Source: Jiangella gansuensis DSM 44835 | Lineage (GTDB): Bacteria; Actinomycetota; Actinomycetes; Jiangellales; Jiangellaceae | Length of the DNA stretch: 64,000 nt | Assembly: GCF_000515395.1 (NCBI RefSeq) | Contig: NZ_KI911782.1 | Span: forward strand, 4,334,697-4,398,696 | Direction of reading: 5' to 3' | Shown: in pieces, positions 4,625 to 51,135 of the stretch | Numbering within the stretch: the first letter of the stretch is position 1 | Layout: each line of letters begins with the position of its first letter | Notes under the pieces: model-generated | What the model saw: only the letters and a program-made list of their open reading frames with translations | The model's database searches: none | Told to the model about the DNA's origin: nothing | Program-made: the position numbers and the translations under genes

Positions 4625-4921
4625 GTGCTGCACGAGATCGGCCAGCCGATCACCGTCACGACCGCGCGCAAACTGCGCACGGCGGTCGAAGCCGGCGCGG
4701 ACAACCTCCTGGTCATGCTCAACGCACGCATCGATCTGGACGGCTTCGAGGACTGGGACATCTGGTGGGGCGCGAACCTCGGCACGCCGCACGAGCGGCT
4801 CGTCGCCGGGCGGGTCGGCGACGTCCGTGCCGAGCTCGACACGGCGCGGGCCGCCGTGAAGTCCGCCGCCGGCTGGATCATGGACCTGTACCTGCTGCGC
4901 AGCGCCTCACCTCGCCGCTGA
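4625..4921 (+). other. Unrecognised 98-codon fragment
   Basis: A plus-strand frame from GTG 4625 to TGA 4921 reads as a plausible soluble protein, with LHEIGQPITVTTARKLRTAV early, a DGFEDWDIWWG segment and a helical end VKSAAGWIMDLYLL. I do not recognise the family. No ribosome-binding site precedes the GTG, and the left edge meets the chlD remnant, so this is most likely the 3' end of a gene whose 5' part was removed by the same deletion that truncated chlD. Confidence 0.35.
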
Positions 4922-4985
4922 GACCCACCCGGTGTGCCCGGTGCGAGATGACATGCGCCGCGCCACGGAGCCGTAGTGTGGGGAC

Positions 4986-5621: not shown

Positions 5622-5678
5622 GGAACCATGCCAGCGTCAGCAAGCCGTAGACGCCCGTAGCGGACCCGCTGCCGGATC

Positions 5679-7298: not shown

Positions 7299-7400
7299 CG
7301 ACAGAACGCCGGAAAAGTCAGGTGAATTCTACAGAGTGACGGGCGGTGACGGTGCCCGAGAGGGTCAGGCTCCGATGACCACCGTGGAAAGGGGAGAAGG

Positions 7401-11379: not shown

Positions 11380-12742
<1,363 letters not shown>

Positions 12743-12866: not shown

Positions 12867-14813
12867 TCAGGCGCCCGCTCGCCGGTGCACCAGCTGGGCC
12901 ATGGGCGCCTGCACCGTGTACTCGTCGGCGACGTCGCCGGCGATCCGGACGATGGCGTCGGTAGTGCGTTGCACCAGCTCGTCGCCGTCGCGCTCGAGCG
13001 TTCCCGGGACGGGCCGCAGGGCGTTGGCCAGGCCGGCGCGCAGCGACAGCACCGGCCACGGGCCCCGGTCCGGGGCCAGCCGGGCGGCGGCCAGCAGGGC
13101 GGCCACCCCGAGGTCGGCGGCGGGTAGCAGGGGTGCGGGCACCTCGGCGTCGAACTCCGAGCCGTCGAGGGTGGAGAAGTGGACGGCGTAGCTGTCGCCG
13201 TCGCGTCGCGCCGTCGCGACGTCGGCGCCCTCGGCGCGGCGCCGCTCGATGTCGGCCGACACGAGGTAGCCGGACGCGTCGATGACCGTCGTGCGGGTCT
13301 CGACGCCGTGTCGCGTCGCGATTTGCTCGCGCCAGGTGGTCGCGCCGCCGTCGGAGTGCGAGGAAATTCTGGTGGCGGCGTCGATCCGGCCGAAGTTGCT
13401 CCGCTCGTACTCGCCGACCAGTCGTTCGCCGGGCGGCACCGGGAGCAGCCGGGCTCGGTCCGGCTCGGCGTGCACGAGCGCTTCGACCTCGTCGAGCAGG
13501 GCGTCCAACTGCGGGCGCTCCAGCACCGTCCCGCCCACGACGACGGCAGACGGGTCCTTCAGAGCGGTGACCGACACCAGGGGGTCGCCGGTCACGGCCA
13601 CGAGGTCGGCGACGAACCCGGCCTCGACGCGGCCGCGATCGGGCAGTCCGAAGTAGTCGGCCGCGCCGCTCGTGGCCAGCCGCACGAGCTCGGCGCTCGT
13701 GTACCCGGCGCCGGTCATCAGCTCCAGCTCCTCGACCAGCGAGGACCCGTGGAAGACGAACGCGTTGTGGGTGTCGGTGCCGACCAGGACCGGCGCGCCG
13801 GCGTCACGGAGCGCGGCGAGGACGCGCCGGCTGCGCTCATGGAAGAGATCGGCGGTGCCCTGCAGCTCGTCGGGCGTCAGCGCCATGATGCGGAAATCGT
13901 TCTCAGGCCGCCACGTGCGGGCGAGCACGGGATCGGTCAGGCGCAGCCGCGGGTCGGTGAAGTCGCGGTGCCCGAGCAGGCGGTCGAGGACGATCAGCGT
14001 GGGGCAGGAGGTGATGTTCTCGGCGGCCATCCGCTGGGCCAGGGCCGCGATCTTGTGTTCGTCGATGTCCGATGCCGCCCGGGCGGCATCGGGGGAGAAC
14101 CGGTTCCGGCCGCGTCCGTAGCTGAACCCCTGCGCGAAGAAGGCGTCGAGGCGTTCCTGGGCGGCCGGGCGCAGCGAGCCGTACTCGTAATTGTTCAGGT
14201 GCTCGAACCCGGTCTGGCCGCGGTCGATCGCCTGGTGGACGGTGAGCGCCTGCGGGCAGTGCCCGACCAGCGGGAGGCCGGTGTCCCGGCAGGCCTCGCC
14301 GAGCCCTTCGAGAGCCTCGCCGGACAGCCACTGATACGCCTTGACCTGCTGGTACCCGAGATCGGCCCACCGGTTCACCGCGGCGTGCGCGCTGGCGCGA
14401 TCGGTGATCTGGGCCGAGTCCGGCCACACTGTCGTTCCCGGCGCACCGCGGCCGTCGGCCATGGCGGTGCTGGTGACGAGGTAGGGCCCGAGCTCCGTGC
14501 CCTCGGCGACGCGTCTGCGCCAGTCCAGGTGCCACGGCTTGCCGCGCATGTTGCGCACCAGCGTGACGCCGTGCGCCAGGTAGCCGAGCATGTCCGCCCG
14601 GTCCTCGACGTGCACGTGGCAGTCGGCGAGACCGGGCAGAATGGTCCGGTCCCGCCAGTCGACGACCCAGCCGGTGATCTGCCGCTCGGTGCGGGGCGCG
14701 ACCCGGGTGATCCGGCCGGCGGCCACTGTGATCGCCTGGTCCCGCAGGACCCCGCGATCGGTCATCGAGAGCACGGTTCCTGCGAGGATCGTCATCGGCG
14801 CGGCGTTATTCAC
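12867..14813 (-). CDS. Amidohydrolase (imidazolonepropionase/prolidase-like) with extra C-terminal domain
   Basis: This 648-aa protein has a metal-dependent amidohydrolase domain in residues ~1-430: LADCHVHVED (metal His pair), a Lys in QQVKAYQW likely to be carboxylated, GHCPQ, FEHLN and GTDTHN with the catalytic Asp. This arrangement resembles the prolidase/imidazolonepropionase-like branch, some members of which cleave Xaa-Pro or other dipeptides. About 200 further residues lack a family I recognise and resemble the beta-rich tails of some amidohydrolases. The GTG start at 14813 is preceded by GGAGG. It is divergent from the M19 dipeptidase across an operator-like site, so a peptide substrate is likely; the specificity is unknown. 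Confidence 0.75.
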   Translation of the reverse strand: MNNAAPMTILAGTVLSMTDRGVLRDQAITVAAGRITRVAPRTERQITGWVVDWRDRTILPGLADCHVHVEDRADMLGYLAHGVTLVRNMRGKPWHLDWRRRVAEGTELGPYLVTSTAMADGRGAPGTTVWPDSAQITDRASAHAAVNRWADLGYQQVKAYQWLSGEALEGLGEACRDTGLPLVGHCPQALTVHQAIDRGQTGFEHLNNYEYGSLRPAAQERLDAFFAQGFSYGRGRNRFSPDAARAASDIDEHKIAALAQRMAAENITSCPTLIVLDRLLGHRDFTDPRLRLTDPVLARTWRPENDFRIMALTPDELQGTADLFHERSRRVLAALRDAGAPVLVGTDTHNAFVFHGSSLVEELELMTGAGYTSAELVRLATSGAADYFGLPDRGRVEAGFVADLVAVTGDPLVSVTALKDPSAVVVGGTVLERPQLDALLDEVEALVHAEPDRARLLPVPPGERLVGEYERSNFGRIDAATRISSHSDGGATTWREQIATRHGVETRTTVIDASGYLVSADIERRRAEGADVATARRDGDSYAVHFSTLDGSEFDAEVPAPLLPAADLGVAALLAAARLAPDRGPWPVLSLRAGLANALRPVPGTLERDGDELVQRTTDAIVRIAGDVADEYTVQAPMAQLVHRRAGA

Positions 14814-14866: not shown

Positions 14867-14884
14867 GACCTACGGACATAGGTC
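14867..14884. promoter_or_regulatory. Operator-like site GACCTA-N6-TAGGTC (amidohydrolase/dipeptidase)
   Basis: A perfect 6-bp inverted repeat with a 6-bp spacer (CGGACA) lies between two divergent genes. The bases on its left (CGCTAGC, then GTTCGA) recur almost unchanged at 19321-19336 upstream of the DUF885 gene, suggesting the same minus-strand promoter plus operator at both places. Confidence 0.7.
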
Positions 14885-14961
14885 TAACCCTTGCGTCCAG
14901 TGGCTGGTTGCCTCAAGAATCGACCCATGATGATGCGACGTTGTTTGCCTGGGACCGACCG

Positions 14962-15990
14962 ATGACGGCGCCGAACGACGAGGCCCTGGTCGTCGATCTG
15001 CACAACGACCTGATCCTGCTGGTCGACCACTTCGACCAGCGCGGCCGGCCGGAGCACTTCGCCGAGTTCTGGCTGCCCGAGCTGCGGTCGGGCGGTGTGA
15101 ACGTCCAGGTGCTGCCCGTGTTCATCGAGGCGCAATACCAGTCCGAGGGAGCCCTGCGGCGGACGCTGCTGCTCATCGAGCGGATCCATCAGCTGGCGTC
15201 ACACCACCCCGAGGTGGAGGTCTGCCTGTCCGGAGCGGAGGTCGCGGCGGCCGTGTCCGCCGGCCGGATCGCGTTCGTGATCGGGCTGGAGGGTGCGCAT
15301 GCCCTGGGCCAGGACCCGGAGCTGATCGGGACGATGTACCGCGTCGGCGCGCGGGTGGTGTCTCTCGCCCACCTGGGCCGGACGCACCTCGCGGACGGCA
15401 GCGGGTTCGACGACAGCGCGCGCGGCGGGCTGACCCCGCAGGGGTTCGAGGTGCTCGCCGAGATGGAACGGCTCGGGATCGTCTTCGACATCAGCCACCT
15501 CGGTGTGGCCGGCGTCGATGACGTGCTGGCCCGGGCGACCCGCCCGCTGCTCGCGACCCACTCGGGCTGCCGGGCCATCACCGACATGCACCGAAACCTC
15601 AGCGACGACCAGATCAAAGGCATCGCCGACCTCGGGGGCGTGATCGGGGTCGCGGCGGCGATCCCGCCGTTCATCGACCCGGCCCGGCCGACCGCCGCCC
15701 GTGTCGTCGACCACATTGAGCACATCGCGTCGGTCGCCTCGATCGACGCCGTGGGGCTGGGACCGGACTTCGTCGACGACTATTACGCGGAGGTCTACGG
15801 CGGCCGCATGGTCATCATGGGCGTGGACGTCGAGTTCGTGGACGCCGAGGTCCGGCGGCCGTCGGACCTCCCGAAGCTCACCGCCGAGATGGTCGCCCGC
15901 GGCTTCTCCGAGGCCGACGTCGCCAAGGTGCTGGGCGGCAACGCCATGCGGGTCCTCGACCATGTGATGGGCGTCGGTGCGCGTGGCTGA
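14962..15990 (+). CDS. M19 family membrane-dipeptidase-like zinc dipeptidase
   Basis: M19 (renal dipeptidase) enzymes hydrolyse dipeptides, often with D-residues at the C-terminal side, at a binuclear zinc centre. All ligands are visible: His and Asp in VDLHNDLI, bridging Glu in VIGLEGAHAL, His in IVFDISHLGV, His in LLATHSGCRAI and Asp in GLGPDF. I chose the ATG at 14962; an in-frame TTG at 14908 would add 18 residues but lacks a better ribosome-binding site. The gene has an operator-like site upstream, and its end overlaps the gamma-glutamyltranspeptidase-like gene by 14 bp, so the two are probably co-translated. Confidence 0.85.
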   Translation: MTAPNDEALVVDLHNDLILLVDHFDQRGRPEHFAEFWLPELRSGGVNVQVLPVFIEAQYQSEGALRRTLLLIERIHQLASHHPEVEVCLSGAEVAAAVSAGRIAFVIGLEGAHALGQDPELIGTMYRVGARVVSLAHLGRTHLADGSGFDDSARGGLTPQGFEVLAEMERLGIVFDISHLGVAGVDDVLARATRPLLATHSGCRAITDMHRNLSDDQIKGIADLGGVIGVAAAIPPFIDPARPTAARVVDHIEHIASVASIDAVGLGPDFVDDYYAEVYGGRMVIMGVDVEFVDAEVRRPSDLPKLTAEMVARGFSEADVAKVLGGNAMRVLDHVMGVGARG

Positions 15991-17620
15991 GCGCCGCGCG
16001 GTGATCGTCGCCGCGCAGCCGGAGGCCGTCGAGGCCGGCGCCGCGATCCTGGAGGCGGGCGGCAACGCGGTCGACGCGGCGATCGCCTGCGCCTTCGTGC
16101 AGACCGTGGTCGACCCGTTGATGTGCGGCATCGCCGGATTCGGCAGCATGGCCGCGTACCTCCCGCAACGGGAGTTCCACGGCTACTACGACTTCCATGC
16201 GGCGGCGCCGAGAGCGGCCCGACCCGAAATGTGGGAGTCGCTCGTCGAGGGCGAGGCCCGCGACGGGTTCGGCTTCATCGTGACCGGCCACGTCAACGAG
16301 ATCGGCTACGAGTCCATCTGCGCACCGGCGTCGCTGCGGGCGCTCCACACCGCTCATCAGGAGCACGGGACGCTGCCGTGGCGCGACGTCCTGGCGCCCG
16401 CGATCGAGTACGCCCGCGATGGATGGACGGTGCGCCCGGACGTCCACGCCTTCTGGTCCGATCCGGGCGCGTTCGGGCACGTCGCCAACAGCGACCGCGC
16501 GTCGTTCACCCCAGCCGCCGCGGCGCTCTACCTGCGCCCGGACGGGTCGCCGAAGCGAATGGGCGACGTTGTGGTGAACCGCGACTATGCCGACGTGCTG
16601 GCGGCGATCGCGCGATCGGGCCCCGAGTCGTTCTACACCGGCGACCTGGCCCGGGCGATGGTCGACGACGTCGCCGCCAACGGCGGTCACCTGACGCTGG
16701 AGGACCTCGCCGACGTCGCCGTCCGGCGCAACGACCCCCTATGGACGACGTACCGCGGCTGGTCGGTCGCCACGAACCGGCCGCCCGGTGGCGGCGTGCA
16801 GCTCGTCCAAATGCTCAACGTCCTCGAGAACTTCGACCTCGAGGCGTTGGGGCACAACGGCGTGGAGTACGTGCGCGTCGTCAGCGAGGCCATGAAGAAG
16901 GCGACGGCCGACAAGGACCGCTACGTCGGCGACCCCGCGTTCGTGGACGTGCCGCTGGACCGGCTGACGTCGAAGGGCTACGCGCGGGAGGTCGCGGAGC
17001 GGATCGAGGCCGGCGAGCGGTTCTCCGTGCCGCGTCACCAGGGACCGGTCGAGGGCCACGACACCACCCATCTCTCGGTGATCGACGCCGACGGGAACTG
17101 CGTGGCCATGACGCACTCGCTGGGCCTGCCGTCCGGGGTGGTCAGCCCCGGGCTGGGCTTCATGTACAACGGCTGCATGTCAAGTTTCGACCCCCGGCCC
17201 GGCCGGGCGGCGTCGATCGCCCCGGGCAAGGCCCGGTTCAGCTCCGTGTGCCCGTCGGTGGTGTTCGACGAAAACGGCCCCATGCTGGTGATCGGTGCCC
17301 CTGGCGGCACACAGATCGCCATGGGCGTCCTTCAGGCGACGCTGAACGTACTCGACTTCGGCGTCCCCATCGGTGAGGCGGTCGGGCTGCCGCGCTTCTC
17401 CGCCACCAGCGACGTCATCGACGTCGTCAATCGCGTCCCGCGCGTCACCCAGGCCGCGCTCGAGGCCCGCGGGTACGAGGTGGTGCGCAGCCCCCGTAGC
17501 CATGCCTTCGGCCTTGTCCACGGGCTGGCGCGGCAGGACGGACGGTGGCGCGGTGGCGCCGATCCCGGCGGCGACGGCATGGCCCTGGAGGTGACGGCGG
17601 CCGCTCAGGCGGGCACCTGA
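15977..17620 (+). CDS. Gamma-glutamyltranspeptidase family N-terminal nucleophile hydrolase
   Basis: The 547-aa protein belongs to the GGT family, which self-cleaves to two subunits and exposes a Thr nucleophile to cut gamma-glutamyl amides or related acyl amides. The cleavage site is GHDTTHLSVIDADGNCVAMT (around residues 364-383). NAVDAAIACAF near the start and VIGAPGGTQIAMGVLQ near the end are also family motifs. No signal peptide is visible, so it is probably cytoplasmic, unlike classical periplasmic GGT. It is coupled to the M19 dipeptidase, a pairing typical of gamma-glutamyl peptide breakdown, but cephalosporin-acylase-like roles occur in this family too. The 3' end overlaps the convergent DUF885 gene by 16 bp. 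Confidence 0.85.
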   Translation: MRVAERRAVIVAAQPEAVEAGAAILEAGGNAVDAAIACAFVQTVVDPLMCGIAGFGSMAAYLPQREFHGYYDFHAAAPRAARPEMWESLVEGEARDGFGFIVTGHVNEIGYESICAPASLRALHTAHQEHGTLPWRDVLAPAIEYARDGWTVRPDVHAFWSDPGAFGHVANSDRASFTPAAAALYLRPDGSPKRMGDVVVNRDYADVLAAIARSGPESFYTGDLARAMVDDVAANGGHLTLEDLADVAVRRNDPLWTTYRGWSVATNRPPGGGVQLVQMLNVLENFDLEALGHNGVEYVRVVSEAMKKATADKDRYVGDPAFVDVPLDRLTSKGYAREVAERIEAGERFSVPRHQGPVEGHDTTHLSVIDADGNCVAMTHSLGLPSGVVSPGLGFMYNGCMSSFDPRPGRAASIAPGKARFSSVCPSVVFDENGPMLVIGAPGGTQIAMGVLQATLNVLDFGVPIGEAVGLPRFSATSDVIDVVNRVPRVTQAALEARGYEVVRSPRSHAFGLVHGLARQDGRWRGGADPGGDGMALEVTAAAQAGT

Positions 17621-19278
17621 GCGATCCAGCGTTCCACGGCGCCGGCCAGCACTGTCATGGGCACTGACCCGTTGCCGAGGACGGCGTCGTGGAAGGCGCG
17701 GATGTCGAAGGCGGCGCCGAGGCGTTCGCGTGCCGTTCGCCGCAGCCGCTCGATCTCGAGGCGGCCGGTCATGTAGGCCAGGGCCTGCCCTGGCCAGGCG
17801 ATGTACCGGTCGATTTCGTTGGCGACGTTCTCGGGGGTGAGCGCGCTGTTGGTGAGCATGAAGTCGATCGCCTGCTGACGCGTCCAGCCGTGGTGGTGCA
17901 GGCCGGTGTCGACAACGAGCCGGCAGGCCCGCCAGGAGTCGAACGAGAGCATGCCGAAGCGGAACAGATCGCCGGAGTAGAGCCCCATCTCGTCGGCGAG
18001 ACGCTCGGAGTAGAGACCCCACCCCTCGCCGAACGCCGGGACGTACAAGTGACGACGGAACGCAGGCAGCTCGGTGAGCTCTTGCGCGAGCCCGAACTGC
18101 AGGTGGTGGCCGGGCACGCCCTCGTGGAACGCTAGTGTTTCGTACTCGTACCGGGTCCGCGTGCTCGGCGCGTGGGTGTTGAGGTTGTAGCGGCCCGGCC
18201 GGCTGCCGTCGCCGGACGAGGGCAGGTACTCGCCGAGCACCGCGGCTGGCGCCAGCACCTCGTTCATGGGCACCACCGCGCACGACGTCGACGGGGTGCG
18301 GCCGAACCAGTTCGGCAGCGCCGCCTCGGCCCGGGCCACGGCCGCCCGCGCGTCGGCCAGGATGTCCTCGGCGGAGGAGTAGCGCAGATCCGGGTCGTGC
18401 CGCAGCCGGTCGACGATCGCGTCGAAGTCGCCGGTGCCGAAGACCCGTTTCCCCAGCACGGCGTACTCGTCGCGCAACGCCTCGCACAGGTCCAGGCCGA
18501 GCCGGTGGATCTCGTCCGGCGAGCGTGTCGTGGTCGTGTGCGCCGCGACGGCGCGCGCGTACATCTCGCCGCCGCCGGGCACGTACAGGAGCCCGCTGAG
18601 CTCGTCCGGCCGGGCCGCCGCCAGCACCGGTCCCGAGAGCGTCTCCATCAGCGCCGCCAGCGCCGGCCGAATGGACTCCGCCACCAGGTCGCGGACCTCG
18701 TCCTCGACGGCGGCGCCGGTCACCCTGCCGGCGATGAGGTCGTCCTGGGCGCGGCTGCGCAGGTAGACGTCCAGCCGTTCGACGGTCTGCTCGACGCCGC
18801 GGCGGGTCGGCACCCGGCCGGCAGCCACGCCGTCCAGCGCCCGCTCCCGGGCCTGGCGGAGGTACCCGGGCACACCGCGCAGCCGGCGCACGTAGCTCTG
18901 CTGCTCGTCCGGCGTGGCGACCGAGACGTTGGTCAGCGCGGTGAACAGCAACGCGCTGGGGGAGGCGTAGCCGGAGACGGCGAACTCCGCATGCCGGTCA
19001 TGGAACGGCACGGCCTCGGACCGCGCGACGTGGATCAGCACGTCCCGCGTCACCCGATCATGGTCGTCGAGTTCGTCCGCCGGGATCCGCTCCGCGCGCG
19101 CCGCCAGGTCCAGGAGGCGCTCGGCCGATGCGAGCTGGGCGGACTCGTCGAGATCGGGCACCTCGCCGTCGAGCCCGGGGATGCCGTGGATGAGCGTCGC
19201 CACGAACGGATCGGCCGCCGCCAACGCCGCGAACAGGTCGTCGGACAGCTCGGCGAGGGGTCGGGACGCGGTATCCAT
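17605..19278 (-). CDS. DUF885 family putative metallopeptidase
   Basis: DUF885 proteins are all-helical, with an HExxH-type zinc signature and are thought to be carboxypeptidase-like. The motif here is LAFHEGVPGHHLQ, followed by AFGEGWGLYSERLADEMGLY, which supplies the third ligand and further active-site residues. The chosen ATG at 19278 follows GAAGGAG; an in-frame start at 19320 would add 14 residues without a ribosome-binding site. Length (557 aa) is normal. Its promoter region resembles that of the amidohydrolase gene and contains an operator-like site. Context suggests intracellular peptide degradation; the substrate is unknown. Confidence 0.8.
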   Translation of the reverse strand: MDTASRPLAELSDDLFAALAAADPFVATLIHGIPGLDGEVPDLDESAQLASAERLLDLAARAERIPADELDDHDRVTRDVLIHVARSEAVPFHDRHAEFAVSGYASPSALLFTALTNVSVATPDEQQSYVRRLRGVPGYLRQARERALDGVAAGRVPTRRGVEQTVERLDVYLRSRAQDDLIAGRVTGAAVEDEVRDLVAESIRPALAALMETLSGPVLAAARPDELSGLLYVPGGGEMYARAVAAHTTTTRSPDEIHRLGLDLCEALRDEYAVLGKRVFGTGDFDAIVDRLRHDPDLRYSSAEDILADARAAVARAEAALPNWFGRTPSTSCAVVPMNEVLAPAAVLGEYLPSSGDGSRPGRYNLNTHAPSTRTRYEYETLAFHEGVPGHHLQFGLAQELTELPAFRRHLYVPAFGEGWGLYSERLADEMGLYSGDLFRFGMLSFDSWRACRLVVDTGLHHHGWTRQQAIDFMLTNSALTPENVANEIDRYIAWPGQALAYMTGRLEIERLRRTARERLGAAFDIRAFHDAVLGNGSVPMTVLAGAVERWIAQVPA

Positions 19279-19335
19279 GTGGCTCCTTCGTCGGACGGCC
19301 GGGTCGCTGGTGGCCCACACGCTAGCGCCTTGTTC

Positions 19336-19421: not shown

Positions 19422-19439
19422 GACCTACTCGTTTAGGTC
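19422..19439 (+). promoter_or_regulatory. Operator-like site GACCTA-N6-TAGGTC before the mutase operon
   Basis: A perfect 6-bp inverted repeat with a 6-bp spacer (CTCGTT) ends 55 bp before the ATG of the first gene of the eight-gene mutase operon. The arms are identical to those at 14867-14884 and match the core of the dgdA operator with one transition per arm. Confidence 0.7.
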
Positions 19440-19494: not shown

Positions 19495-19896
19495 ATGTTG
19501 GAGCCGAGGTCTGTTGGCGACGACCGAGCGATGATCCGACTTCGCTTGTCGCCCGGCGATGCGCGGTACGCCGGGAACCTGGTCCCCGGGTCGAAGGCGA
19601 TGGAGATCTTCGCCGACCTCGAGACCGAACTCGCCCTCAAGGAGGGGGGCGACGAGGGCCTATGCGCGGCATACGACTCGGTCGAGTTCCTCGCGCCGCT
19701 GCGGGTGGGCGACTACGTCGAGGGCATCGCGCGGGTGACCCGGCGAGGGAACCGCAGCCGCATCATCGAGGCCCGGATCTTCAAGGTCCTCGGCGTCGAC
19801 GAGAATGGCGCGCTCGCCAGCACCGACCCGGTGCTGGCGGCCACCGCCGTGGCGACGATCGTGGTGGGCACCAACTCCGGCGCGGGCGTTGCCTGA
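19495..19896 (+). CDS. 3-Aminobutyryl-CoA ammonia-lyase-like hotdog protein (Kal family)
   Basis: Kal in lysine-fermenting clostridia, and the related beta-alanyl-CoA ammonia-lyase, eliminate ammonia from 3-aminoacyl-CoA to give crotonyl- or acryloyl-CoA. The 133-aa sequence is very similar across the hotdog core: RLRLSPGDARYAGNLVPGS, FADLETELAL, GDEGLCAAYDSVEFLAP, VGDYVEG and a C-terminal VLAATAVATIVV. The ATG at 19495 follows GGAGGAG; upstream in-frame starts lack one. It opens the operon with a CoA ligase and a B12 mutase, so 3-aminobutyryl-CoA made by the mutase is the natural substrate to propose. No lysine-fermentation genes are present. Confidence 0.8.
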   Translation: MLEPRSVGDDRAMIRLRLSPGDARYAGNLVPGSKAMEIFADLETELALKEGGDEGLCAAYDSVEFLAPLRVGDYVEGIARVTRRGNRSRIIEARIFKVLGVDENGALASTDPVLAATAVATIVVGTNSGAGVA

Positions 19897-19897
19897 A

Positions 19898-21388
19898 GTG
19901 ATCGCCCACCCTGACACGGTCGTCGCGTGGATCGAGGCGGTGGTGCGTGCGCACGCCGGCCGCCCGGCGCTGATCCACGACGGCGCCACCTGGAGCTACC
20001 GGGAGCTGTGGTCGCGCGCGGAGGACACCGCCCGGCGCCTGCTCGCAGGCGGCCTGCGGCCCGGCGACACGGTCGGTCTCCTGGGCGCCAACGAGCCGGC
20101 GTACATCGTCAACTACCTCGGGATCGCCCGGGCGGGCGGTACCGCGGTTCCGGTCAACGACCGGCTCGACGGCGCGACGGTGCGCAGCCTGCTCGCCTCG
20201 GTCGACGCCACGCGCGTGTTCGTCGGCCGGGTCGACGCGGTCGTCCGCGACGAGCTCGCCGAGACGTTCCAAATCCTCCCTATGGGCGCCGACGATCCGG
20301 TGCAGCGCCGCGGCCGGCTACCGGTCGCGGGACCGGCGACGCCGGCCGCGATCATGCTGACCAGCGGCTCGACCGGACGGCCGAAGGGGGTCGTGCACTC
20401 CCAGGCCACCATGTTGCACGCGGCACAGCAGCTGACCTCGACGTTCCCGTTCCGCCCGGACGACCGGTCGGTGGTCTTCCTCCCGCTCTACGCGTGCATC
20501 CCGGAGCAGGTGCTGCCGGTGCTGTGCACCGGCGGCGCGCTGGAGATCCTGCCGCGATTCGACGTCGAGCGTGTCGCCGACGCCTGCACCAGGGCGACGA
20601 CATTCGACGCGGTGCCGACGATCCTGAGCCGGCTGATCGAACACGCGCCCCCGGAGAAGCTCGCCCACCTGCGGTGGGTGCTGTTCGCGTCGGAGCACAT
20701 GCCGGTGACGCTCCTGCACCGCTGGTGGGACGAGCTGCCCGGCGTGGAGACACACCAGCTCTACGGGATGACGGAGGTGCTGCCGCTGTCGGCGGCGCCG
20801 CACCGGTTGCTACGCCGGGAGCCGTCCACCATCGGGCGGGCGTTCCCGACGACGCGGCTGAGCGTCGACGGCGGCGGCGCGGACGGCGGCGGCGCGGACG
20901 GCGGCGAGCTGATCGGCGCCAGTCCGGCCCAGATGGTGGGGTACTACAAGGACGAGGTCGCCACGAAGGCTGCGCTCGGCCCGGACGGCGCCATGCGCAC
21001 GGGTGACCTCGGTCGCATCGACGAGCGTGGGCTCGTCTTCCTGACCGGCCGGAGCAAGGACATCATCATCTCCGGCGGCATCAACATCGCGCCCGCCGAG
21101 ATCGAGGCCGTCGCCGCCCGGCATCCGTCGGTCGAACGGGCGGTCGTCGTGGGCGTGCCGAGCGAACGCTGGGGTGAGACCCCGGTCGTCGTCGCCGTGC
21201 CCCGTCCGGGCCGGGCCCTGACGGCCGACGACCTGCTGAGCCACTGCAGGTCACAGCTGACCAGCTACAAGCGACCTACCGCCGCCGGGCTGATCGACGC
21301 CCTCCCGACCACCGGTATCGGCAAGACGGCCAAGGACACGGTGAGGAAGATGATCGTGGATGGGAAGATCAACGTTGTTCGAGTCTGA
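19898..21388 (+). CDS. Acyl-CoA ligase 1 (AMP-forming), candidate 2-aminoisobutyryl-CoA ligase
   Basis: This ANL-superfamily enzyme activates a carboxylate with ATP and joins it to CoA. Motifs are complete: IMLTSGSTGRPKGVVHSQ (P-loop-like A3), LYGMTEVLPL, RTGDLGRIDERGLVFLTGRS (A7/A8), KDIIISGGINIAPAEIEA and the catalytic C-terminal Lys in TTGIGKTAKD. The GTG at 19898 is used just after the kal stop; TTG at 19889 is an alternative. A low-complexity GGGAD repeat interrupts it near residues 325-336. It is closely related to the ligase at 27273 (shared THFDAVPTILSRLIEHAP-like block, here TTFDAVPTILSRLIEHAP). Position between kal and the mutase genes suggests it makes the mutase substrate. Confidence 0.8.
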   Translation: MIAHPDTVVAWIEAVVRAHAGRPALIHDGATWSYRELWSRAEDTARRLLAGGLRPGDTVGLLGANEPAYIVNYLGIARAGGTAVPVNDRLDGATVRSLLASVDATRVFVGRVDAVVRDELAETFQILPMGADDPVQRRGRLPVAGPATPAAIMLTSGSTGRPKGVVHSQATMLHAAQQLTSTFPFRPDDRSVVFLPLYACIPEQVLPVLCTGGALEILPRFDVERVADACTRATTFDAVPTILSRLIEHAPPEKLAHLRWVLFASEHMPVTLLHRWWDELPGVETHQLYGMTEVLPLSAAPHRLLRREPSTIGRAFPTTRLSVDGGGADGGGADGGELIGASPAQMVGYYKDEVATKAALGPDGAMRTGDLGRIDERGLVFLTGRSKDIIISGGINIAPAEIEAVAARHPSVERAVVVGVPSERWGETPVVVAVPRPGRALTADDLLSHCRSQLTSYKRPTAAGLIDALPTTGIGKTAKDTVRKMIVDGKINVVRV

Positions 21389-22280
21389 CCAGATCGAGGC
21401 ACTCGTGGCCAAGGGCCGGCAAGGCCACTGGGCGCCGCTCGCCCGTGCGGTGACGGTGGTCGAGAACAGCCCGCCCTGGGAGGTCTCCATCCCACGGGCG
21501 TCCCGGCCCTGCCACATCGTGGGCATCACCGGGCCGCCGGGCGCCGGCAAGAGCACCCTCACCGGCCGCCTGATCGAGTCCTTCGCCGACGACGGCCAGC
21601 GGGTCGCCGTCCTGGCGATCGACCCGTCCAGCCCGCTCAGCGGCGGAGCCGTCCTCGGCGACCGCGTACGGATGGAGACCTACCTGACCGGCCGGCCCGG
21701 GGTGTTCGTGCGCAGCCTGGCCAGTCGCGGATCGCATGGCGCCGTGGCCGGGTCCACCCGCAACATCGCCCGGCTCCTGGAGCTGTCCGGCCTGTTCGAC
21801 ATCGTGCTCATCGAGACGGTGGGCGCGGGCCAGACGGAGGTCGCCATCGTCGAGGTCGCCGACACCGTGCTGCTGGTCACCGTGCCCGGGCTCGGTGACG
21901 CCGTGCAGACGATCAAGGCGGGCCTCATGGAGGTCGCCGACGCCTTCATCGTCAACATGGCCGACCGGCCCGGCGCCTCGGAGACGGCGCGGCACCTGCG
22001 CCTGGCCGCCGGGCGGGTGGACGCCGTGTACAAGACGGTGGCCATCGAGGGCACCGGGGTGGACCAGGTGCGCGACGGCATGTACGCGCGGTGGAAGTCG
22101 CTGCTGGAGGACGGGCAGCTGGAGGCGCGGCGCCTGGCGAAGTGGGGCTCGGACGCGGCGCTGGTGGCGGAGGCCTGGGTCGCCGACTGCGCCGGCGCGC
22201 TCGACCTCGACCCGCACGCGACCATGCAGGACTCCGTGGACAAGATCTTGAAGGAGGCGTCACACCGATGGAGCCGATGA
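21360..22280 (+). CDS. MeaB/ArgK-type GTPase, mutase chaperone
   Basis: MeaB-family G proteins load adenosylcobalamin onto acyl-CoA mutases and protect them from inactivation. The 306-aa sequence has the Walker A in VGITGPPGAGKSTLTGRLI, DPSSPLSGGAVLGDRVRME, FVRSLASRGSHG and the LIETVGAGQTE switch segment. The base-specificity motif, usually NKAD, reads NMAD here, a notable substitution that could affect guanine recognition. The ATG at 21360 overlaps the ligase gene by 29 bp; the 3' end overlaps the large mutase subunit by 13 bp. This position directly before the mutase genes supports a dedicated chaperone. Confidence 0.88.
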   Translation: MGRSTLFESDQIEALVAKGRQGHWAPLARAVTVVENSPPWEVSIPRASRPCHIVGITGPPGAGKSTLTGRLIESFADDGQRVAVLAIDPSSPLSGGAVLGDRVRMETYLTGRPGVFVRSLASRGSHGAVAGSTRNIARLLELSGLFDIVLIETVGAGQTEVAIVEVADTVLLVTVPGLGDAVQTIKAGLMEVADAFIVNMADRPGASETARHLRLAAGRVDAVYKTVAIEGTGVDQVRDGMYARWKSLLEDGQLEARRLAKWGSDAALVAEAWVADCAGALDLDPHATMQDSVDKILKEASHRWSR

Positions 22281-23956
22281 ACGAGGACGACAAGCGCTGG
22301 GACGAGCGCGTCGAGGCATGGAGCACCGGGCGGGTCGCCGCCGACTACGAGCGGATCCCGCCGCGGCGCTCGGAGTACACGACCCTGTCCGGTGCGCCCG
22401 TCAAGGACATCTACACCCATGCGGACATCCGGCACCTGGACCCGGCCGAGGACATCGGGCTCCCCGGTGAGTACCCGTACACCCGTGGCGTGCACGCCAC
22501 GATGTACCGCGGCAGGCCGTGGACGATCCGGCAGGTGGCGGGCTTCGGTCAGGCCGAGGACACCAACAACCGGTACAAGTACCTGCTCAGGACCGGCCAG
22601 ACCGGTCTCTCGACCGACTTCGACCTACCGACGCTGCTGGGCTACGACTCCGACCACGAGGTGTACCGACGCGAGGTCGGCCGCATCGGTGTCGCCGTCG
22701 ACACCGTCGTCGACATGCATGCGCTGTTCGACGGCATCCCGCTCGACCAGATCTCCACATCGATGACGATCAACCCGTCGGCCGCCGTCGTGCTGGCCAT
22801 GTACCGGGTGGTGGCCGACGAGCGGGGCATCCCGGGCCACGTGCTCACCGGGACCACCCAGAACGACATCCTCAAGGAGTACATCGCCCAGAACGAGTTC
22901 ATCTTCCCGCCGCTGCCCTCGGTGCAGCTGGTGGTCGACACGATGGAGTACGGCGCGGACGTGATGCCGCGGTTCAACCCGCTCAACGTGTGCGGCTACC
23001 ACATCCGCGACGCCGGTGCGACGGCCGTCGAGGAGGTCGGGCTGACGATCAGCAACGCGCTGTGCTACCTGGAGCACGCGGTCGAGCGCGGCATCGACGT
23101 CGACCGGCTGGCGCCGCGGGTGTCGTTCTTCTGGGACGTGCACAACAACTTCTTCGAGGAGGCGGCGAAGCTGCGGGCGGCCCGCCGGTTGTGGGCGCGG
23201 CTCATGCGGGAGCGGCTGGGCGCCAAGGATCCCCGCTCGTGGCTGATGCGGGCGCACTGCCAGACCGCAGGCGTCTCCCTCACCGCGCAGCAGCCGTACA
23301 ACAACGTCGCCCGGACCGCGATCCAGGCCATGGCTGCCGTCCTGGGCGGCACCCAGTCGCTGCACACGAACTCCCTCGACGAGGCCCTGTCCATCCCGTC
23401 GGAGAGCGCAATCAAGATCGCCGTCCGCACCCAGGCGATCATCCTGCACGAGACCGGCGTCGCCGACGTCGTCGATCCGCTCGCCGGGTCGTACTACGTG
23501 GAGTCGCTCACCTCCCAGATCGAGGAGGACGCGCTCGCGCTGATCGAGCGGATCGACGCAATGGGCGGCATGATCGAGGCGGTCCAGTCCGGCTACGCGG
23601 TCCAGCTGATCTCCGATTCCGCCTGGGAGCAGCAGGTCAAGGTCGAGAGCAACGACACCATCACTGTCGGTGTGAACGCCTACGTCGACGAGGACGAGAC
23701 CCAGGACATCGAGATCGACCGTCCGGTGCCCGGCGTGATGGAACGCCAGATGGCGCGGCTCGCCGAGGTGAAACGGTCCCGCGAGGACCGGCAGGTGAGC
23801 ACGACACTGCGGGCGATCGAGAAGGCCGCCCCCGACCTGCAGCACAACCTGATGCCGCTGATCGAGGACGCCGTGCGCGCTCGAGCCACGGTCGGCGAGA
23901 TCTGTGACGTGCTGCGCGGCGTGTGGGGCCACCACCAGCCGTCGACCGTGTTCTAG
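22268..23956 (+). CDS. B12-dependent acyl-CoA mutase large subunit, 2-hydroxyisobutyryl-CoA-mutase-like
   Basis: The ATG at 22268 follows AAGGAGG and gives 562 aa, the same length as HcmA of Aquincola tertiaricarbonis as I recall it. The TIM-barrel substrate domain is clear: WTIRQVAGFGQAEDTN, GQTGLSTDFDLPTLLGYDSD, MTINPSAAVVLAMY, AHCQTAGVSLTAQQPYNN, QSLHTNSLDEALSIPSE and VIDPLAGSYYVE-like end VVDPLAGSYYVESL. Residue 117 is Asp, as in 2-hydroxyisobutyryl-CoA mutase; methylmalonyl-CoA mutases have Ala there. Residue 90 is Val where HcmA has Ile and methylmalonyl-CoA mutase has Tyr. It therefore belongs near the HCM branch but with a changed pocket. With a Kal homologue in the operon, 2-aminoisobutyryl-CoA to 3-aminobutyryl-CoA is the proposed reaction; 2-hydroxyisobutyryl-CoA remains an alternative. 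Confidence 0.85.
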   Translation: MEPMNEDDKRWDERVEAWSTGRVAADYERIPPRRSEYTTLSGAPVKDIYTHADIRHLDPAEDIGLPGEYPYTRGVHATMYRGRPWTIRQVAGFGQAEDTNNRYKYLLRTGQTGLSTDFDLPTLLGYDSDHEVYRREVGRIGVAVDTVVDMHALFDGIPLDQISTSMTINPSAAVVLAMYRVVADERGIPGHVLTGTTQNDILKEYIAQNEFIFPPLPSVQLVVDTMEYGADVMPRFNPLNVCGYHIRDAGATAVEEVGLTISNALCYLEHAVERGIDVDRLAPRVSFFWDVHNNFFEEAAKLRAARRLWARLMRERLGAKDPRSWLMRAHCQTAGVSLTAQQPYNNVARTAIQAMAAVLGGTQSLHTNSLDEALSIPSESAIKIAVRTQAIILHETGVADVVDPLAGSYYVESLTSQIEEDALALIERIDAMGGMIEAVQSGYAVQLISDSAWEQQVKVESNDTITVGVNAYVDEDETQDIEIDRPVPGVMERQMARLAEVKRSREDRQVSTTLRAIEKAAPDLQHNLMPLIEDAVRARATVGEICDVLRGVWGHHQPSTVF

Positions 23957-23971
23957 AGGAAGGACGTGACA

Positions 23972-24397
23972 ATGACATCCGCCACTGCTGGTCTGCCGCC
24001 GCTCAAGGTGGTGATCGCCAAGCCCGGGCTCGACGGACACGACCGCGGCGCCAAGGTCGTGGCACGGGCGTTGCGCGACTCCGGTATGGAAGTCGTCTAC
24101 ACCGGCATCTATCAAAGCCCGGAATCGATCCTGCGCGCGGTCGTCCAGGAAGACGCCGACGTCCTCGGCCTGTCCAGCCTGTCCGGCGCTCACCTCGAGT
24201 ACGCCAGGGACCTGTGCGCGCTGCTGAAGGAGAACGACCGCCGGGACGTACTGTTCGTCGTCGGCGGCACCATCCCGCCCGAGGACGCCGACACGCTCAA
24301 GGGCTACGGCGTCCACGAGGTCTTCGGGCCTGGGACGCCGACGGCCGAGCTGGTCGAGTACATCTCCCGCAACGCCCGACAGGCGAGGCTGGCGTGA
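23972..24397 (+). CDS. B12-binding small subunit of the acyl-CoA mutase
   Basis: This 141-aa flavodoxin-like domain binds adenosylcobalamin base-off/His-on. It contains the DxHxxG motif in KPGLDGHDRGAKVVARAL, followed by VLGLSSLSGAHLEYA and the nucleotide-tail loop FVVGGTIPPEDADTL. The separate small subunit is the arrangement of HCM and isobutyryl-CoA mutases rather than fused methylmalonyl-CoA mutase. ATG 23972 sits at good distance from AGAGGAAGG; GTG 23966 is too close to it. It follows the large-subunit gene by 15 bp, and its stop overlaps the next GTG. Confidence 0.9.
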   Translation: MTSATAGLPPLKVVIAKPGLDGHDRGAKVVARALRDSGMEVVYTGIYQSPESILRAVVQEDADVLGLSSLSGAHLEYARDLCALLKENDRRDVLFVVGGTIPPEDADTLKGYGVHEVFGPGTPTAELVEYISRNARQARLA

Positions 24398-25494
24398 CGT
24401 TCAGGTCGCGCGACCTCGGCATCGTGGTCGGTGACCTCCCGACCGGCCGGCACAACGCCATCACCGACGTCCCTGGCGTGCGGGTGGGACACCACACGTT
24501 GCGCGCGGGCGACGGGCCGCTGGTCGTCGGCGAGGGCCCGGTGCGCACCGGGGTGACCGTCGTGGAGCCGCGGCCGCAGGTCTGGCGCTCGCCGGTCTTC
24601 GCCGGCTTCCACCGGCTCAACGGCAACGGCGAGATGACCGGCCTGCACTGGATCCGGGAGAACGGGCAGCTCACCACCGCGATTGGCCTGACCAACACCC
24701 ACTCGGTCGGCGTGGTCCGCGACGCGATCGTCGCCCGGCTGCACGGGGAACGGGGCGACGACGAGCTCTACTTCCACCTTCCGGTGGTGGCGGAGACGTA
24801 TGACGGCATCCTGAGCGACATCAACGGGCAGCACGTCACGGCCGCCCACGTCGACGCGGCCTTCGACGCCCTGTCCGGCGGGCCCGTCGCCGAGGGCTCG
24901 GTCGGCAGCGGCACGGGCATGATCTGCCACGAGTTCAAGGGCGGCATCGGCACGTCGTCGCGGGTCGTCGGCGACACCTACACCGTCGGCGTCCTCGTGC
25001 AGGCCAACCACGGCCGGCGTGGGCGGCTGCGGGTGAACGGCGTACCGGTCGGCGAGCGGATCCCCACCGACGAGGTCCCGTCGCCGTTCGACGCGGTGGT
25101 GCGGACGGCCCGGGGCAGCGGGTCGATCATCGTGCTCATCGCGACGGACGCACCGCTGCTGCCACATCAGTGCGAACGGCTGGCCCAGCGTGGCGCCCTG
25201 GCCATCGGGCGGACCGGCGGGTCCGGCGAGAACGGCAGCGGCGACCTGCTCCTGGCGTTCTCCACCGGGAACGAAGGCCTACCCCGGGTCGGCCTGGTGG
25301 AACCGGACCCGGACGAGATTCCGCTGCGCATGGCCAGCAACACCGTGATCAACGGCCTGTTCGACGCGGTCATCGACGCCACCGAGGAGGCGATCCTCAA
25401 TGCCGTAGTGACCGCGGACACCAGTGTCGGACGCGACGGGATCACCGCGCACGCGCTGGACCACAACCGCCTGCGCACGGCCTACGCCGGATGA
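24394..25494 (+). CDS. P1 family (DmpA/BapA-type) aminopeptidase
   Basis: DmpA-type enzymes are self-cleaving N-terminal-nucleophile aminopeptidases acting on D-alanine amides, L-aminoacyl peptides or beta-amino acid N-termini. The autoproteolysis Gly-Ser and following strand are visible as GSGSIIVLIATDAPLLPHQ (around residues 239-257); early motifs are ITDVPGVRVGHHT and LNGNGEMTGL, and VAEGSVGSGTGMICHEFKGG forms the oxyanion region. GTG 24394 overlaps the small-subunit stop, ATGA overlaps the next gene. Its place inside a B12-mutase operon suggests it releases the non-standard amino acid from a peptide or amide. Confidence 0.85.
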   Translation: MTFRSRDLGIVVGDLPTGRHNAITDVPGVRVGHHTLRAGDGPLVVGEGPVRTGVTVVEPRPQVWRSPVFAGFHRLNGNGEMTGLHWIRENGQLTTAIGLTNTHSVGVVRDAIVARLHGERGDDELYFHLPVVAETYDGILSDINGQHVTAAHVDAAFDALSGGPVAEGSVGSGTGMICHEFKGGIGTSSRVVGDTYTVGVLVQANHGRRGRLRVNGVPVGERIPTDEVPSPFDAVVRTARGSGSIIVLIATDAPLLPHQCERLAQRGALAIGRTGGSGENGSGDLLLAFSTGNEGLPRVGLVEPDPDEIPLRMASNTVINGLFDAVIDATEEAILNAVVTADTSVGRDGITAHALDHNRLRTAYAG

Positions 25495-27260
25495 CGCGTC
25501 CGATGCCACCCGCCGAACCACCCGATGCCACGCCGGCCACCGTGGCCGCGGCGATCGCCGAGTACCTGAGTGGTCAGGGGATCGAACGGGTGTTCAGCCT
25601 GCCCGGCTCGCACATGAAGCCGATCTGGGCGGAGCTGGACGCGCGGGGCGTCCGGATCGTGACGGCGCGGCACGAGGTGGCCGCCGTGCACATGGCCCAG
25701 GCGGAGGCCGATCTGCGCCACGGACTCGCCGTCGCGATCGTCACGACCGGGCCGGGGCTGACCAACGCGGTCACCGGGATCGGATGTGCTTTCCTCGCCG
25801 GTTCACCGGTGCTCGTCATCTCGACCCGCCCGCCGGACGAGCAGGCGGGCATGGGTGCCCTGGAGGAGATCGACCAAGCGGCGATCGTCCGGCCGGTCTG
25901 CCGGGCAGTGGAGGTGGTCCGATCGCGCCGGCACGTCGTCGACCGGCTCGACCGCGCCGTGAGCGCGGCGCTCGGTGACGACGGCCCCGGCGGCCCGGTG
26001 TACGTCGAGTTCGGCACCGAGCTGCTGCGCCAGGATGCCGCGCCGCTCTACACGACCTATCCGCGCCGCACGAGGGCGCGCCGGCCACCGGAGGCCGCCG
26101 CCGTCGACCGAGCCGTCGACGCGATCGCGGCCAGCACCCGGCCGTTGGTGCTCGCCGGTCGCGAGGCGCTCACCGTGCCCGGCCCGTTGGCCGAGTTCGT
26201 GCGCACGACCGGCGCCCTGTACCTCGACACCCGGGCGAGCCGGGGCGCCCTGTCCGAGAGCATCCCCACGTTCGTTCCGGCGGCGCGGGCCCGGGCGATG
26301 GCCGAGGCCGACTTGGTGATCACGGTCGGCCGGCAGCTGGACTTCGAGACGGCGTACGGGTCGCCCGCGGTCTTCACCGGGGCCGAGCGGTTCCTGCGGA
26401 TCGGCCGGAACTCCGAAGAGGTCCAGGCCAACCGCCGCGGCGACGTGGAGCTGCGCGCCGATCCGCACTCAGCGCTGGAGGCTCTGTTCGCGGCCGGCGC
26501 GCGACCGGCCGCTCCGGATCTCGCGTGGCGCGACGACGTCATGAGCAGCAACGCCGGCAAGCGGCGCCGGCTCAGCGAGACGATGCAAGCCCAACCCACT
26601 CCCGCAGACGGCGGGCTCCACCCGCTCCAGGTCATCCGCGCGCTCAATGAGCACATCGACGACACCGCGATCGTGATCGTCGACGGCGGGGACATCCTGT
26701 CGTGGTCGCGGTCTAGCCTGAACACGCCCACCTACCTGGACCTGGGGGCGTTCGGATGCCTCGGGGTGGGCATCCCGTTCGCCGTCTCGGCGTCGCTCAA
26801 CCATCCGGACCGCACGGTCATCGCGCTCGTCGGCGACGGCGCCCTGGGCTTCAACGTCATGGAACTGGAGACCGCAGTCCGCGAAGGCGCACGCTTCGTC
26901 GTCGTCGTGGCCGACAACAACGCGTGGAACATCGAACGCGTCGACCAGGTCCGCAACTACGAGGGGCGGGTCATGGGCACCGAGCTCGGCCCCTGCGCCT
27001 GGGACCGGCTCGCCGAGAGCCTCGGCGTCGCCGGCTACCGCGCCGGCAGCGTGGACGACCTGGACACGGTGCTCGGCGAGGCCTTCGCGCACGCACCCGC
27101 GGTGGTCGCCGTCCGGGTCTCTCGCGAACCGGTGTCACCGGACACCAGAAGCGGCCTCGCCCTGGTGCCGGAGTACCACGCACTCGCCGCCTGGGACGCG
27201 GCCGAGCGGACGTGGTTGTCGGGGCCGCGTCCTGGGGGCCGCAGAGTCGTGAACCGGTGA
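25491..27260 (+). CDS. ThDP-dependent lyase resembling actinobacterial 2-hydroxyacyl-CoA lyase
   Basis: The 589-aa protein has the three-domain ThDP fold of acetolactate synthase, oxalyl-CoA decarboxylase and 2-hydroxyacyl-CoA lyase. The activating Glu is in ARHEVAAVHMAQAEADL and the ThDP/Mg motif in GDGALGFNVMELETAVREGA, followed by DNNAWNIERVDQV. Actinobacterial 2-hydroxyisobutyryl-CoA lyases, which split 2-hydroxyisobutyryl-CoA to acetone and formyl-CoA, are described as carrying a glutamate after such a WNIE segment and an extended C-terminus; both appear here, from memory of that family. It is ATGA-coupled to dmpA and followed 12 bp later by an acyl-CoA ligase. Acetolactate synthase is unlikely because no regulatory subunit or branched-chain gene is near. 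Confidence 0.75.
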   Translation: MTRPMPPAEPPDATPATVAAAIAEYLSGQGIERVFSLPGSHMKPIWAELDARGVRIVTARHEVAAVHMAQAEADLRHGLAVAIVTTGPGLTNAVTGIGCAFLAGSPVLVISTRPPDEQAGMGALEEIDQAAIVRPVCRAVEVVRSRRHVVDRLDRAVSAALGDDGPGGPVYVEFGTELLRQDAAPLYTTYPRRTRARRPPEAAAVDRAVDAIAASTRPLVLAGREALTVPGPLAEFVRTTGALYLDTRASRGALSESIPTFVPAARARAMAEADLVITVGRQLDFETAYGSPAVFTGAERFLRIGRNSEEVQANRRGDVELRADPHSALEALFAAGARPAAPDLAWRDDVMSSNAGKRRRLSETMQAQPTPADGGLHPLQVIRALNEHIDDTAIVIVDGGDILSWSRSSLNTPTYLDLGAFGCLGVGIPFAVSASLNHPDRTVIALVGDGALGFNVMELETAVREGARFVVVVADNNAWNIERVDQVRNYEGRVMGTELGPCAWDRLAESLGVAGYRAGSVDDLDTVLGEAFAHAPAVVAVRVSREPVSPDTRSGLALVPEYHALAAWDAAERTWLSGPRPGGRRVVNR

Positions 27261-32107: not shown

Positions 32108-32158
32108 TGGGGTTCGTCGCCGGTCGAACGCTTGTGGTCGCGAGAGAGGAGTGAGCGC

Positions 32159-33820: not shown

Positions 33821-33933
33821 CGGCGCCGTCCGGATCTCCGGACGCGCGATCCGTTCCTGAAGCAGAAGAAGCCCCTGCCGGATCCGAACCCGTTGCTGTT
33901 CACGCGTGGCGTGGTCACAGACGAGGAGAGCAC

Positions 33934-39467: not shown

Positions 39468-39501
39468 GCATCCCGTACTCCGATCGAATGGAGGAAGCAA
39501 C

Positions 39502-51118: not shown

Positions 51119-51135
51119 CTCGAGGAGTGAACGTC

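Follow-up and report, generated by a model that had tools for sequence, protein, structure and literature searches.

Why does a gene whose product resembles the ammonia lyase (Kal) of lysine fermentation stand at the head of an operon with a CoA ligase and a B12-dependent mutase in Jiangella gansuensis DSM 44835, and which reaction could it serve there? Within the window, i.e., the whole analysed stretch of 64,000 nucleotides, this gene (kal) opens a compact operon of eight genes with intergenic gaps of -29 to +12 bases, in the order kal, lig1, meaB, mutL, mutS, an S58 peptidase gene, hacl and lig2, after which a GntR gene follows on the opposite strand. We consider it rather probable that kal encodes the enzyme for the final step in a CoA- and B12-dependent catabolism of alpha-aminoisobutyrate (Aib), perhaps also of isovaline-like alpha,alpha-dialkyl amino acids. 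The features relevant to this reading are the following, with the type of evidence in brackets:

10263–11378, minus strand: alanine dehydrogenase, directly downstream of the decarboxylase gene (TIGR00518, above cut-off)
11380–12693, minus strand: predicted 2,2-dialkylglycine decarboxylase, Aib to acetone and CO2 with pyruvate to alanine (nearest solved relative)
12709–12742, no strand: 14-bp perfect inverted repeat with 6-bp spacer, core GGCCTA-N6-TAGGCC at 12717–12734 (pattern search)
12867–14813, minus strand: amidohydrolase family protein behind a candidate operator (profile)
14867–14884, no strand: candidate operator GACCTA-N6-TAGGTC, 0 mismatches, between the amidohydrolase (minus) and dipeptidase (plus) genes (pattern search)
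14908–15990, plus strand: M19 dipeptidase, behind the same candidate operator as the amidohydrolase
15977–17620, plus strand: gamma-glutamyltransferase, behind the same candidate operator, after the M19 dipeptidase
17605–19320, minus strand: DUF885 protein, divergent from kal (reading frame start at 19320, true start possibly further in)
19422–19439, no strand: candidate operator GACCTA-N6-TAGGTC, 0 mismatches, between the DUF885 gene (minus) and kal (plus) (pattern search)
19495–19896, plus strand: kal, divergent Kal-type beta-aminoacyl-CoA ammonia lyase (profile, solved structure, fold, alignment, tree)
19898–21388, plus strand: lig1, AMP-forming acyl-CoA ligase, predicted Aib-CoA ligase (profile, alignment)
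21360–22280, plus strand: meaB, G-protein chaperone of B12 mutases (TIGR00750 236.6 bits, Pfam MeaB 227.2)
22268–23956, plus strand: mutL, large subunit of a B12-dependent acyl-CoA mutase (solved match, signature residues, tree)
23966–24397, plus strand: mutS, B12-binding small subunit of the mutase (TIGR00640, above cut-off)
24394–25494, plus strand: peptidase of family S58, the D-aminopeptidase / DmpA / BapA family (profile)
25491–27260, plus strand: hacl, actinobacterial-type ThDP 2-hydroxyacyl-CoA lyase (NF058623, above cut-off)
27273–28745, plus strand: lig2, paralogue of lig1 with 59% identity (alignment)
28751–29740, minus strand: GntR-family regulator, candidate regulator of the locus (profile)

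The kal reading frame, which runs from an ATG at 19495 to a stop ending at 19896 and encodes 133 amino acids, is a real gene, as it is conserved in other genomes with a homologue of lig1 directly behind it each time: identities are 82-98% across five further Jiangella genomes, 75% for the Streptomyces samsunensis copy and 69% for that of an Actinomycetota MAG. An alternative in-frame TTG at 19402 would lengthen the frame and was judged unlikely as a start. The product is a hotdog protein with NCBIfam NF052388 (3-aminobutyryl-CoA ammonia lyase; E 1e-30, 106.5 bits) as top profile, whereas Pfam 4HBT reaches just 9e-7. Its closest solved sequence is the beta-alanyl-CoA:ammonia lyase 4mtu/4mzq (4e-13; first acyl-CoA hydrolase at 1e-6), and the closest fold is again 4mtu (Foldseek 1.3e-9; VIA Z 14.2, rmsd 2.4, 120 aligned). 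Both the nearest solved relative and the fold thus place it in the Kal/Act superfamily and not with the thioesterases, an identity disfavoured by profile, for which the fold comparison leaves room, as the margin is small (thioesterases at Z 13.4). A MaoC hydratase was rejected, no MaoC family or structure being among the profile and solved-structure matches. Every column that is invariant in an alignment of 25 Kal-like proteins (Y25, D41, E54, G72-D73 and others) is retained.

The claim of the earlier note, made from the sequence before any search, that this reading frame is Kal-type rather than MaoC-like is therefore sound; its interpretation as Kal proper, however, needs to be narrowed to a divergent, Kal-like clade. 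The curated NF052388 cut-off of 160 bits is missed by the window protein as well as by the S. samsunensis (108.7 bits) and MAG (97.8 bits) copies, while it is passed by five of the ten proteins scanned, every one of them outside the module; two non-module proteins, from our loci L140 and L141, miss it too. Furthermore, the module Kals form a clade of their own in the tree (8 rows, support 95/97, long stem), and they show DARY and VPGS/AAGS (VPG or AAG) where most Kals show DAHY and VDGA. Given these replaced residues and the missed cut-off, the clade could have an activity other than ammonia lyase; the predicted reaction is (S)-3-aminobutyryl-CoA to crotonyl-CoA and NH3. A rarity of Kal-like genes in this actinomycete class was not supported by the search: they are common there, with 79 of 393 genomes matching at E<=1e-8, the six Jiangella included.

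The grouping of Kal, a CoA ligase and a B12 mutase, pointed out beforehand as an unusual setting, was confirmed by mapping gene neighbours. The module kal-lig1-meaB-mutL-mutS occurs in eight genomes: six of the 12 Jiangella genomes, S. samsunensis (where the S58 gene comes next) and the Actinomycetota MAG; the Jiangella neighbours were taken from the window and from L034, L035, L099, L100 and L101. A lig1 homologue lies directly 3' of kal in every module lineage, and in all three lineages kal and lig1 stand directly before meaB and the mutase genes, whereas the lyase gene does not. MeaB itself scores slightly below the TIGR00750 cut-off (236.6 vs 240.75) and far above that of Pfam MeaB. Kal proteins above 51% identity were restricted to the six Jiangella among 393 genomes of the class. 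By the same threshold, S. samsunensis is the sole carrier among 392 genomes of its genus, in which eight have any Kal match at 1e-20 and the remaining seven lie at 40-42%; in the class of the MAG the module is present in one of 249 genomes, and 13 have any Kal match, the other twelve at 43-50%. A plasmid search yielded no Kal of at least 60% identity (10 records). Conversely, none of the 19 non-module Kal loci fetched, some of them cut by contig ends, out of the 96 listed (77 from the class, seven from the Streptomyces genus and 12 from the MAG's class) has a mutase gene near Kal, and a mutase search in 396 genomes of the phylum gave, among the matches listed, none above 55% identity save the organism's own.

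Other surroundings of Kal-like genes were seen as well. L088 and L089 carry a ligase and an aminotransferase near Kal, and L090 a ligase. At 4242-9152 of L140, a plasmid of Streptomyces sp. NBC_01208, a Kal-like hotdog protein is part of an apparent biosynthetic cassette with a PLP enzyme, a holo-ACP synthase, an AMP-binding protein, a phosphopantetheine-binding protein, ectoine synthase and EctA, whereas L141 (Rhizobium ruizarguesonis pRlX3, 4796-9575) groups a GntR gene, a very divergent Kal-like protein, an adenylate-forming enzyme and a thioesterase, possibly another beta-aminoacyl-CoA route.

The character of the mutase is central to the question. The best solved match of MutL is 2-hydroxyisobutyryl-CoA mutase (HCM; 4r3u, 577.5 bits), compared with 502 bits for methylmalonyl-CoA mutase (MCM). 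At the HCM positions I90/D117/Q208 it carries Val, Asp and Gln (V90/D117/Q208 when counted from the ATG at 22268; 93/120/211 when numbered from 22259). Across the aligned mutases, from which matches with fewer than 380 aligned residues were removed, HCM rows show Ile/Asp/Gln, two further groups, which we take from their residue states to be ICM-like and MCM-like, show Phe/Ala/Gln and Tyr/Ala/Arg, respectively, and all module rows show Val/Asp/Gln; a distant row (L053) has Met/Ala/Arg. Asp117 of HCM, which contacts the substrate hydroxyl, is thus shared by MutL, whereas Ile90, found in all four HCM rows, is replaced by Val in all module rows, and the MCM residues, presumably numbered Tyr89 and Arg207, are Val and Gln in MutL. 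In the mutase tree of 53 rows, which includes only four HCM rows and no Kyrpidia-type mutase and from which six duplicates and three distant rows (L051, L053, L056) had been removed, the eight module rows (100/100) and the HCM rows (100/100) form separate clades joined at 93/98 with a long-branch warning. In addition, at 42 positions the module mutases share a fixed residue unlike that of the HCM rows and that of most ICM-like and MCM-like rows; some of these positions presumably adjoin active-site motifs. From the solved match, the three-position states, the separate clades and these fixed positions, we conclude that MutLS belongs to the HCM-like mutases, that its substrate lacks a second carboxylate and that it is probably not HCM itself. 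The Val in place of Ile90 may enlarge the pocket, and by analogy the Asp at position 117 would be well suited to hold an ammonium group.

This organization resembles the known HCM operon (hcl-hcmA-hcmB-meaH) in its two-subunit B12 mutase with Asp117 and Gln208 kept, MeaB-type chaperone, CoA ligase and GntR regulator, and differs from it in the Val for Ile90, the 42 distinct fixed positions, another type of ligase and the additional kal gene. Canonical HCM operons on Xanthobacter and Agrobacterium plasmids comprise GntR, small subunit, ligase, meaB and large subunit, without Kal, and S. samsunensis carries both mutase types, a canonical HCM operon (L150) and the module. The ligase compared, that from the Xanthobacter HCM operon, matches lig1 and lig2 with a best E of 0.02, which is not significant. 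Residues E203 and E266, invariant across nine aligned ligases, might hold an ammonium group; the AlphaFold model of Lig1 is poor (pLDDT 51.5) and was left unused for specificity. HCM converts 2-hydroxyisobutyryl-CoA into (S)-3-hydroxybutyryl-CoA, as stated in a passage of PMC8760513, and the reaction is reversible according to PMC7176365. The amino analogue of this product is 3-aminobutyryl-CoA, the substrate in Kal's name.

A pointer to the substrate comes from 7 kb to the left of the operon, where the product of 11380-12693 is a predicted 2,2-dialkylglycine decarboxylase (598.7 bits to 1d7r, next family 228.5). Such an enzyme converts Aib and pyruvate to acetone, CO2 and alanine, as outlined in parts of PMC7782822 and PMC10169451. 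Alanine dehydrogenase, encoded directly behind it, would recycle the alanine from this reaction. The decarboxylase gene is present in all eight module genomes, i.e., in the six Jiangella that carry the module and as a 64% homologue in S. samsunensis and a 59% homologue in the MAG, while it is missing from all six module-free Jiangella and occurs in seven of 234 non-Jiangella genomes of the class; since the Jiangella copies sit in a single island, their six co-occurrences count as one event, not as six independent ones. Its position shows that gene order differs between genomes: in the MAG 1.8 kb separate it from the gene of the small mutase subunit, in the Jiangella genome G006 it adjoins the GntR gene on the opposite side of the operon. 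In S. samsunensis it is located on a different contig (C252) from the module. Both the HCM-type character of the mutase and this decarboxylase, with its related operator, had escaped the earlier note, which had described the operon's setting correctly as regards ligase and mutase.

The two branches seem to be linked by regulation. The palindrome GACCTA-N6-TAGGTC was noticed by eye in the output of a search for shared 16-mers upstream of kal and gntR, which by score gave no common motif, and was tested afterwards; as the pattern was drawn from some of the sites later tested, its count over whole genomes and its occurrence in other genomes give a fairer test. Among 14 whole genomes, the perfect form has eight copies in five module-bearing Jiangella, all at this locus, at a chance expectation of about 0.11 per 5.59 Mb; none was found in the whole genomes of module-bearing G012, the six module-free Jiangella, S. 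samsunensis and the MAG, and the reversed control pattern occurs once each in three genomes of the same search. The variant core before the decarboxylase gene begins 24 bases from its start. With up to two mismatches, the sites before kal, between the amidohydrolase and dipeptidase genes and before the decarboxylase gene recur in five other Jiangella loci, with the exception of L034 (from G012), which has no such site between amidohydrolase and dipeptidase; in other loci, matches of this quality number 12 per 419,549 bases. Six more two-mismatch matches in Jiangella loci look unrelated (window 33671, L034 7255, L035 6601, L099 14068, L100 8178, L103 7222). With up to three mismatches, the window holds 31 matches compared with a shuffle mean of 13.84 and a largest value of 26, which is beyond chance, but most are within genes; L099 (13 of 200 shuffles as high) and L102 (22 of 200) do not exceed chance. 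A sigma-70 promoter scan found none.

Outside Jiangella the operator evidence is weak: the candidate sites of S. samsunensis have three mismatches before kal and two before gntR, and the best site before kal in the MAG has two and could be due to chance. Among eight non-module decarboxylase loci fetched, G166 has a 57% GntR homologue as divergent neighbour of the decarboxylase gene with a two-mismatch site in between, and the remaining seven have neither a GntR homologue nor a nearby site. The adjacent GntR protein probably controls both branches via GACCTA-N6-TAGGTC sites. A further two-mismatch copy lies at L103:3874 (G006), about 145 bases before a peptide-binding protein gene, from which a transporter may belong to the regulon.

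Several neighbouring genes concern peptides. Three family-5 oligopeptide-binding proteins are encoded in tandem at 30446-35589, an unusual triplication (the first recognized by Pfam, the other two by eye from the translation), followed by a permease gene at 35762-36727. Further peptidase genes at 39424-40500, 41226-42722, 44566-45564 and 51115-53421 (two M19, one S10-like and one S9/DPP IV) make the right side of the window look like a peptide-use island. On the left side, 5679-10305 encodes a CoA-acylating methylmalonate-semialdehyde dehydrogenase (TIGR01722, above cut-off) and a class III aminotransferase, adjoined by a PucR regulator; this pair could serve beta-alanine or beta-aminoisobutyrate. 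The decarboxylase, the peptidases and the oligopeptide transporter genes nearby fit with growth on Aib-rich peptides.

Aib has no alpha hydrogen and so resists ordinary transamination and dehydrogenation. We propose that regulon peptidases, including the S58 enzyme, would release Aib from Aib-rich peptides such as fungal peptaibols, and that ligase 1 would form 2-aminoisobutyryl-CoA. MutLS, loaded by MeaB, would then shift the thioester carbon from C2 to a methyl carbon, giving (S)-3-aminobutyryl-CoA by a radical rearrangement such as HCM performs on the hydroxy analogue, and the Kal-type lyase would finally remove ammonia to yield crotonyl-CoA for beta-oxidation. In parallel, dialkylglycine decarboxylase and alanine dehydrogenase would produce acetone, CO2 and ammonia. 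This proposal builds on gene content, compact gene order, family placement, the mutase signature, co-occurrence and the shared operator; the substrate, the mutase reaction, the pairing of regulator and site, the peptide source and the ecology are what we infer beyond these.

The lyase gene hacl has no place in this route. It encodes an enzyme above the equivalog cut-off in the window (NF058623, 616 bits vs 600) and is present in all eight module genomes and in none of the six module-free Jiangella, which favours a different reading, namely that the operon serves to break down 2-hydroxyisobutyrate, or to join acetone with formyl-CoA, through HCM and the hydroxyacyl-CoA lyase, the Kal-like protein being a helper thioesterase or hydratase. 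The decarboxylase could supply acetone as the partner of the lyase, the HCM-type Asp of MutL would suit the hydroxy ester, and for Desulfococcus a combination of 2-hydroxyacyl-CoA lyase and mutase is discussed for acetone in part of PMC7176365. We nevertheless regard this as unlikely: the canonical HCM operons seen (Xanthobacter, Agrobacterium and L150) do without Kal and use another type of ligase, S. samsunensis already owns such an operon, 3-hydroxybutyryl-CoA needs no special lyase, and it is kal with lig1, not hacl, that directly precedes the meaB and mutase genes in three lineages. Within the Aib reading, Hacl may serve 2-hydroxyisobutyrate, or join acetone from the decarboxylase and formyl-CoA to 2-hydroxyisobutyryl-CoA for the same mutase; acetone could be returned in this way if the mutase takes the hydroxy analogue as well. 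The Aib reading falls, by contrast, if the mutase acts on the hydroxy ester only. The actinobacterial lyase cluster described in a section of PMC7176365 likewise combines the NF058623-type lyase with an acyl-CoA ligase, there without a mutase, whereas here a B12 mutase and Kal are added and the adjoining ligase is a lig1 paralogue.

It is less likely still that the operon serves beta-amino acids freed by the S58 peptidase, activated by ligase 1 and deaminated by Kal, with the mutase acting downstream on the acyl-CoA skeleton. The S58 family does include beta-peptidyl aminopeptidases, an S58 gene lies near two other Kal loci (L093, L095), and a CoA ligase with an ammonia lyase, albeit one of the enoyl-CoA hydratase family, is known for beta-valine in Pseudomonas from a portion of PMC4619459; a mutase, however, would be superfluous after Kal, none lies near Kal in the 19 non-module loci fetched, an HCM-type mutase works on 2-substituted isobutyryl-CoA, and the link to dialkylglycine decarboxylase would be left unexplained. 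Similarly small is the probability we give to the same chemistry on another alpha,alpha-dialkyl amino acid in place of Aib, e.g., isovaline or 1-aminocyclopropane-1-carboxylate. A passage of PMC10169451 reports isovaline as an inducer of dialkylglycine decarboxylase that is consumed by yeasts having this enzyme, and the Val for Ile90 may widen the pocket; on the other side, Aib makes up about 56% of peptaibols in the same account, and the sequence does not separate the candidate substrates. That the protein is an enzyme of lysine fermentation, either a remnant or taken over unchanged, is very improbable, and this reading was rejected: Lys_ferment_KAL is the closest named profile, but the whole J. 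gansuensis genome (G000) has no Kce/BKACE match (PF05853, E<=0.001), nor does G006, compared with 20 of 23 genomes searched that have one, and Kal stays below the curated cut-off in its separate clade. The earlier suggestions that lysine breakdown is not the setting and that the gene was recruited to another pathway agree with this; recruitment indeed looks to be the case.

How does the proposed Aib route compare with those already described? Dialkylglycine decarboxylase, also encoded at this locus and apparently with a related operator, was the sole enzyme then known to react with Aib, to which AibH1H2 was added, as put in part of PMC7782822; it yields acetone and CO2, whereas the proposed route would retain all four carbons as crotonyl-CoA. 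The AibH1H2-G-F monooxygenase route of Rhodococcus wratislaviensis, as presented in excerpts of PMC7782822, is likewise a decarboxylase-independent Aib catabolism of an actinomycete, based on oxygen-dependent hydroxylation instead of CoA and B12 chemistry. The beta-valine route of Pseudomonas SBV1 (BvaA/BvaB), in the portion of PMC4619459 that describes it, shares the CoA activation of a non-transaminable amine followed by an aminoacyl-CoA ammonia lyase, which there belongs to the enoyl-CoA hydratase family and operates without a mutase. No report of aminoisobutyryl-CoA or of such a pathway was found in the open-licence PMC literature, and subscription journals may have one. The individual enzymes are relatives of known ones, and neither their combination nor a B12 carbon-skeleton mutase for an aminoacyl-CoA was found there, so that there is a fair chance of a new pathway. 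Whether the locus as a whole holds an unreported reaction and pathway, i.e., a B12-dependent 2-aminoisobutyryl-CoA mutase with a Kal-type drain to crotonyl-CoA, joined with decarboxylase and peptidases in one Aib-responsive GntR regulon for eating Aib-rich fungal peptides, appears to us evenly balanced.

Five genes and a single commercially available amino acid are enough to test the route directly. If true, it would be a third bacterial route of Aib, and one that conserves carbon; amino substrates would be added to the range of the isobutyryl-CoA mutase family, and Kal-type lyases would gain an actinomycete role outside lysine breakdown. Furthermore, its enzymes might be of use as a biocatalyst for 3-aminobutyryl-CoA, and the route would hint at bacteria living on fungal peptaibols.
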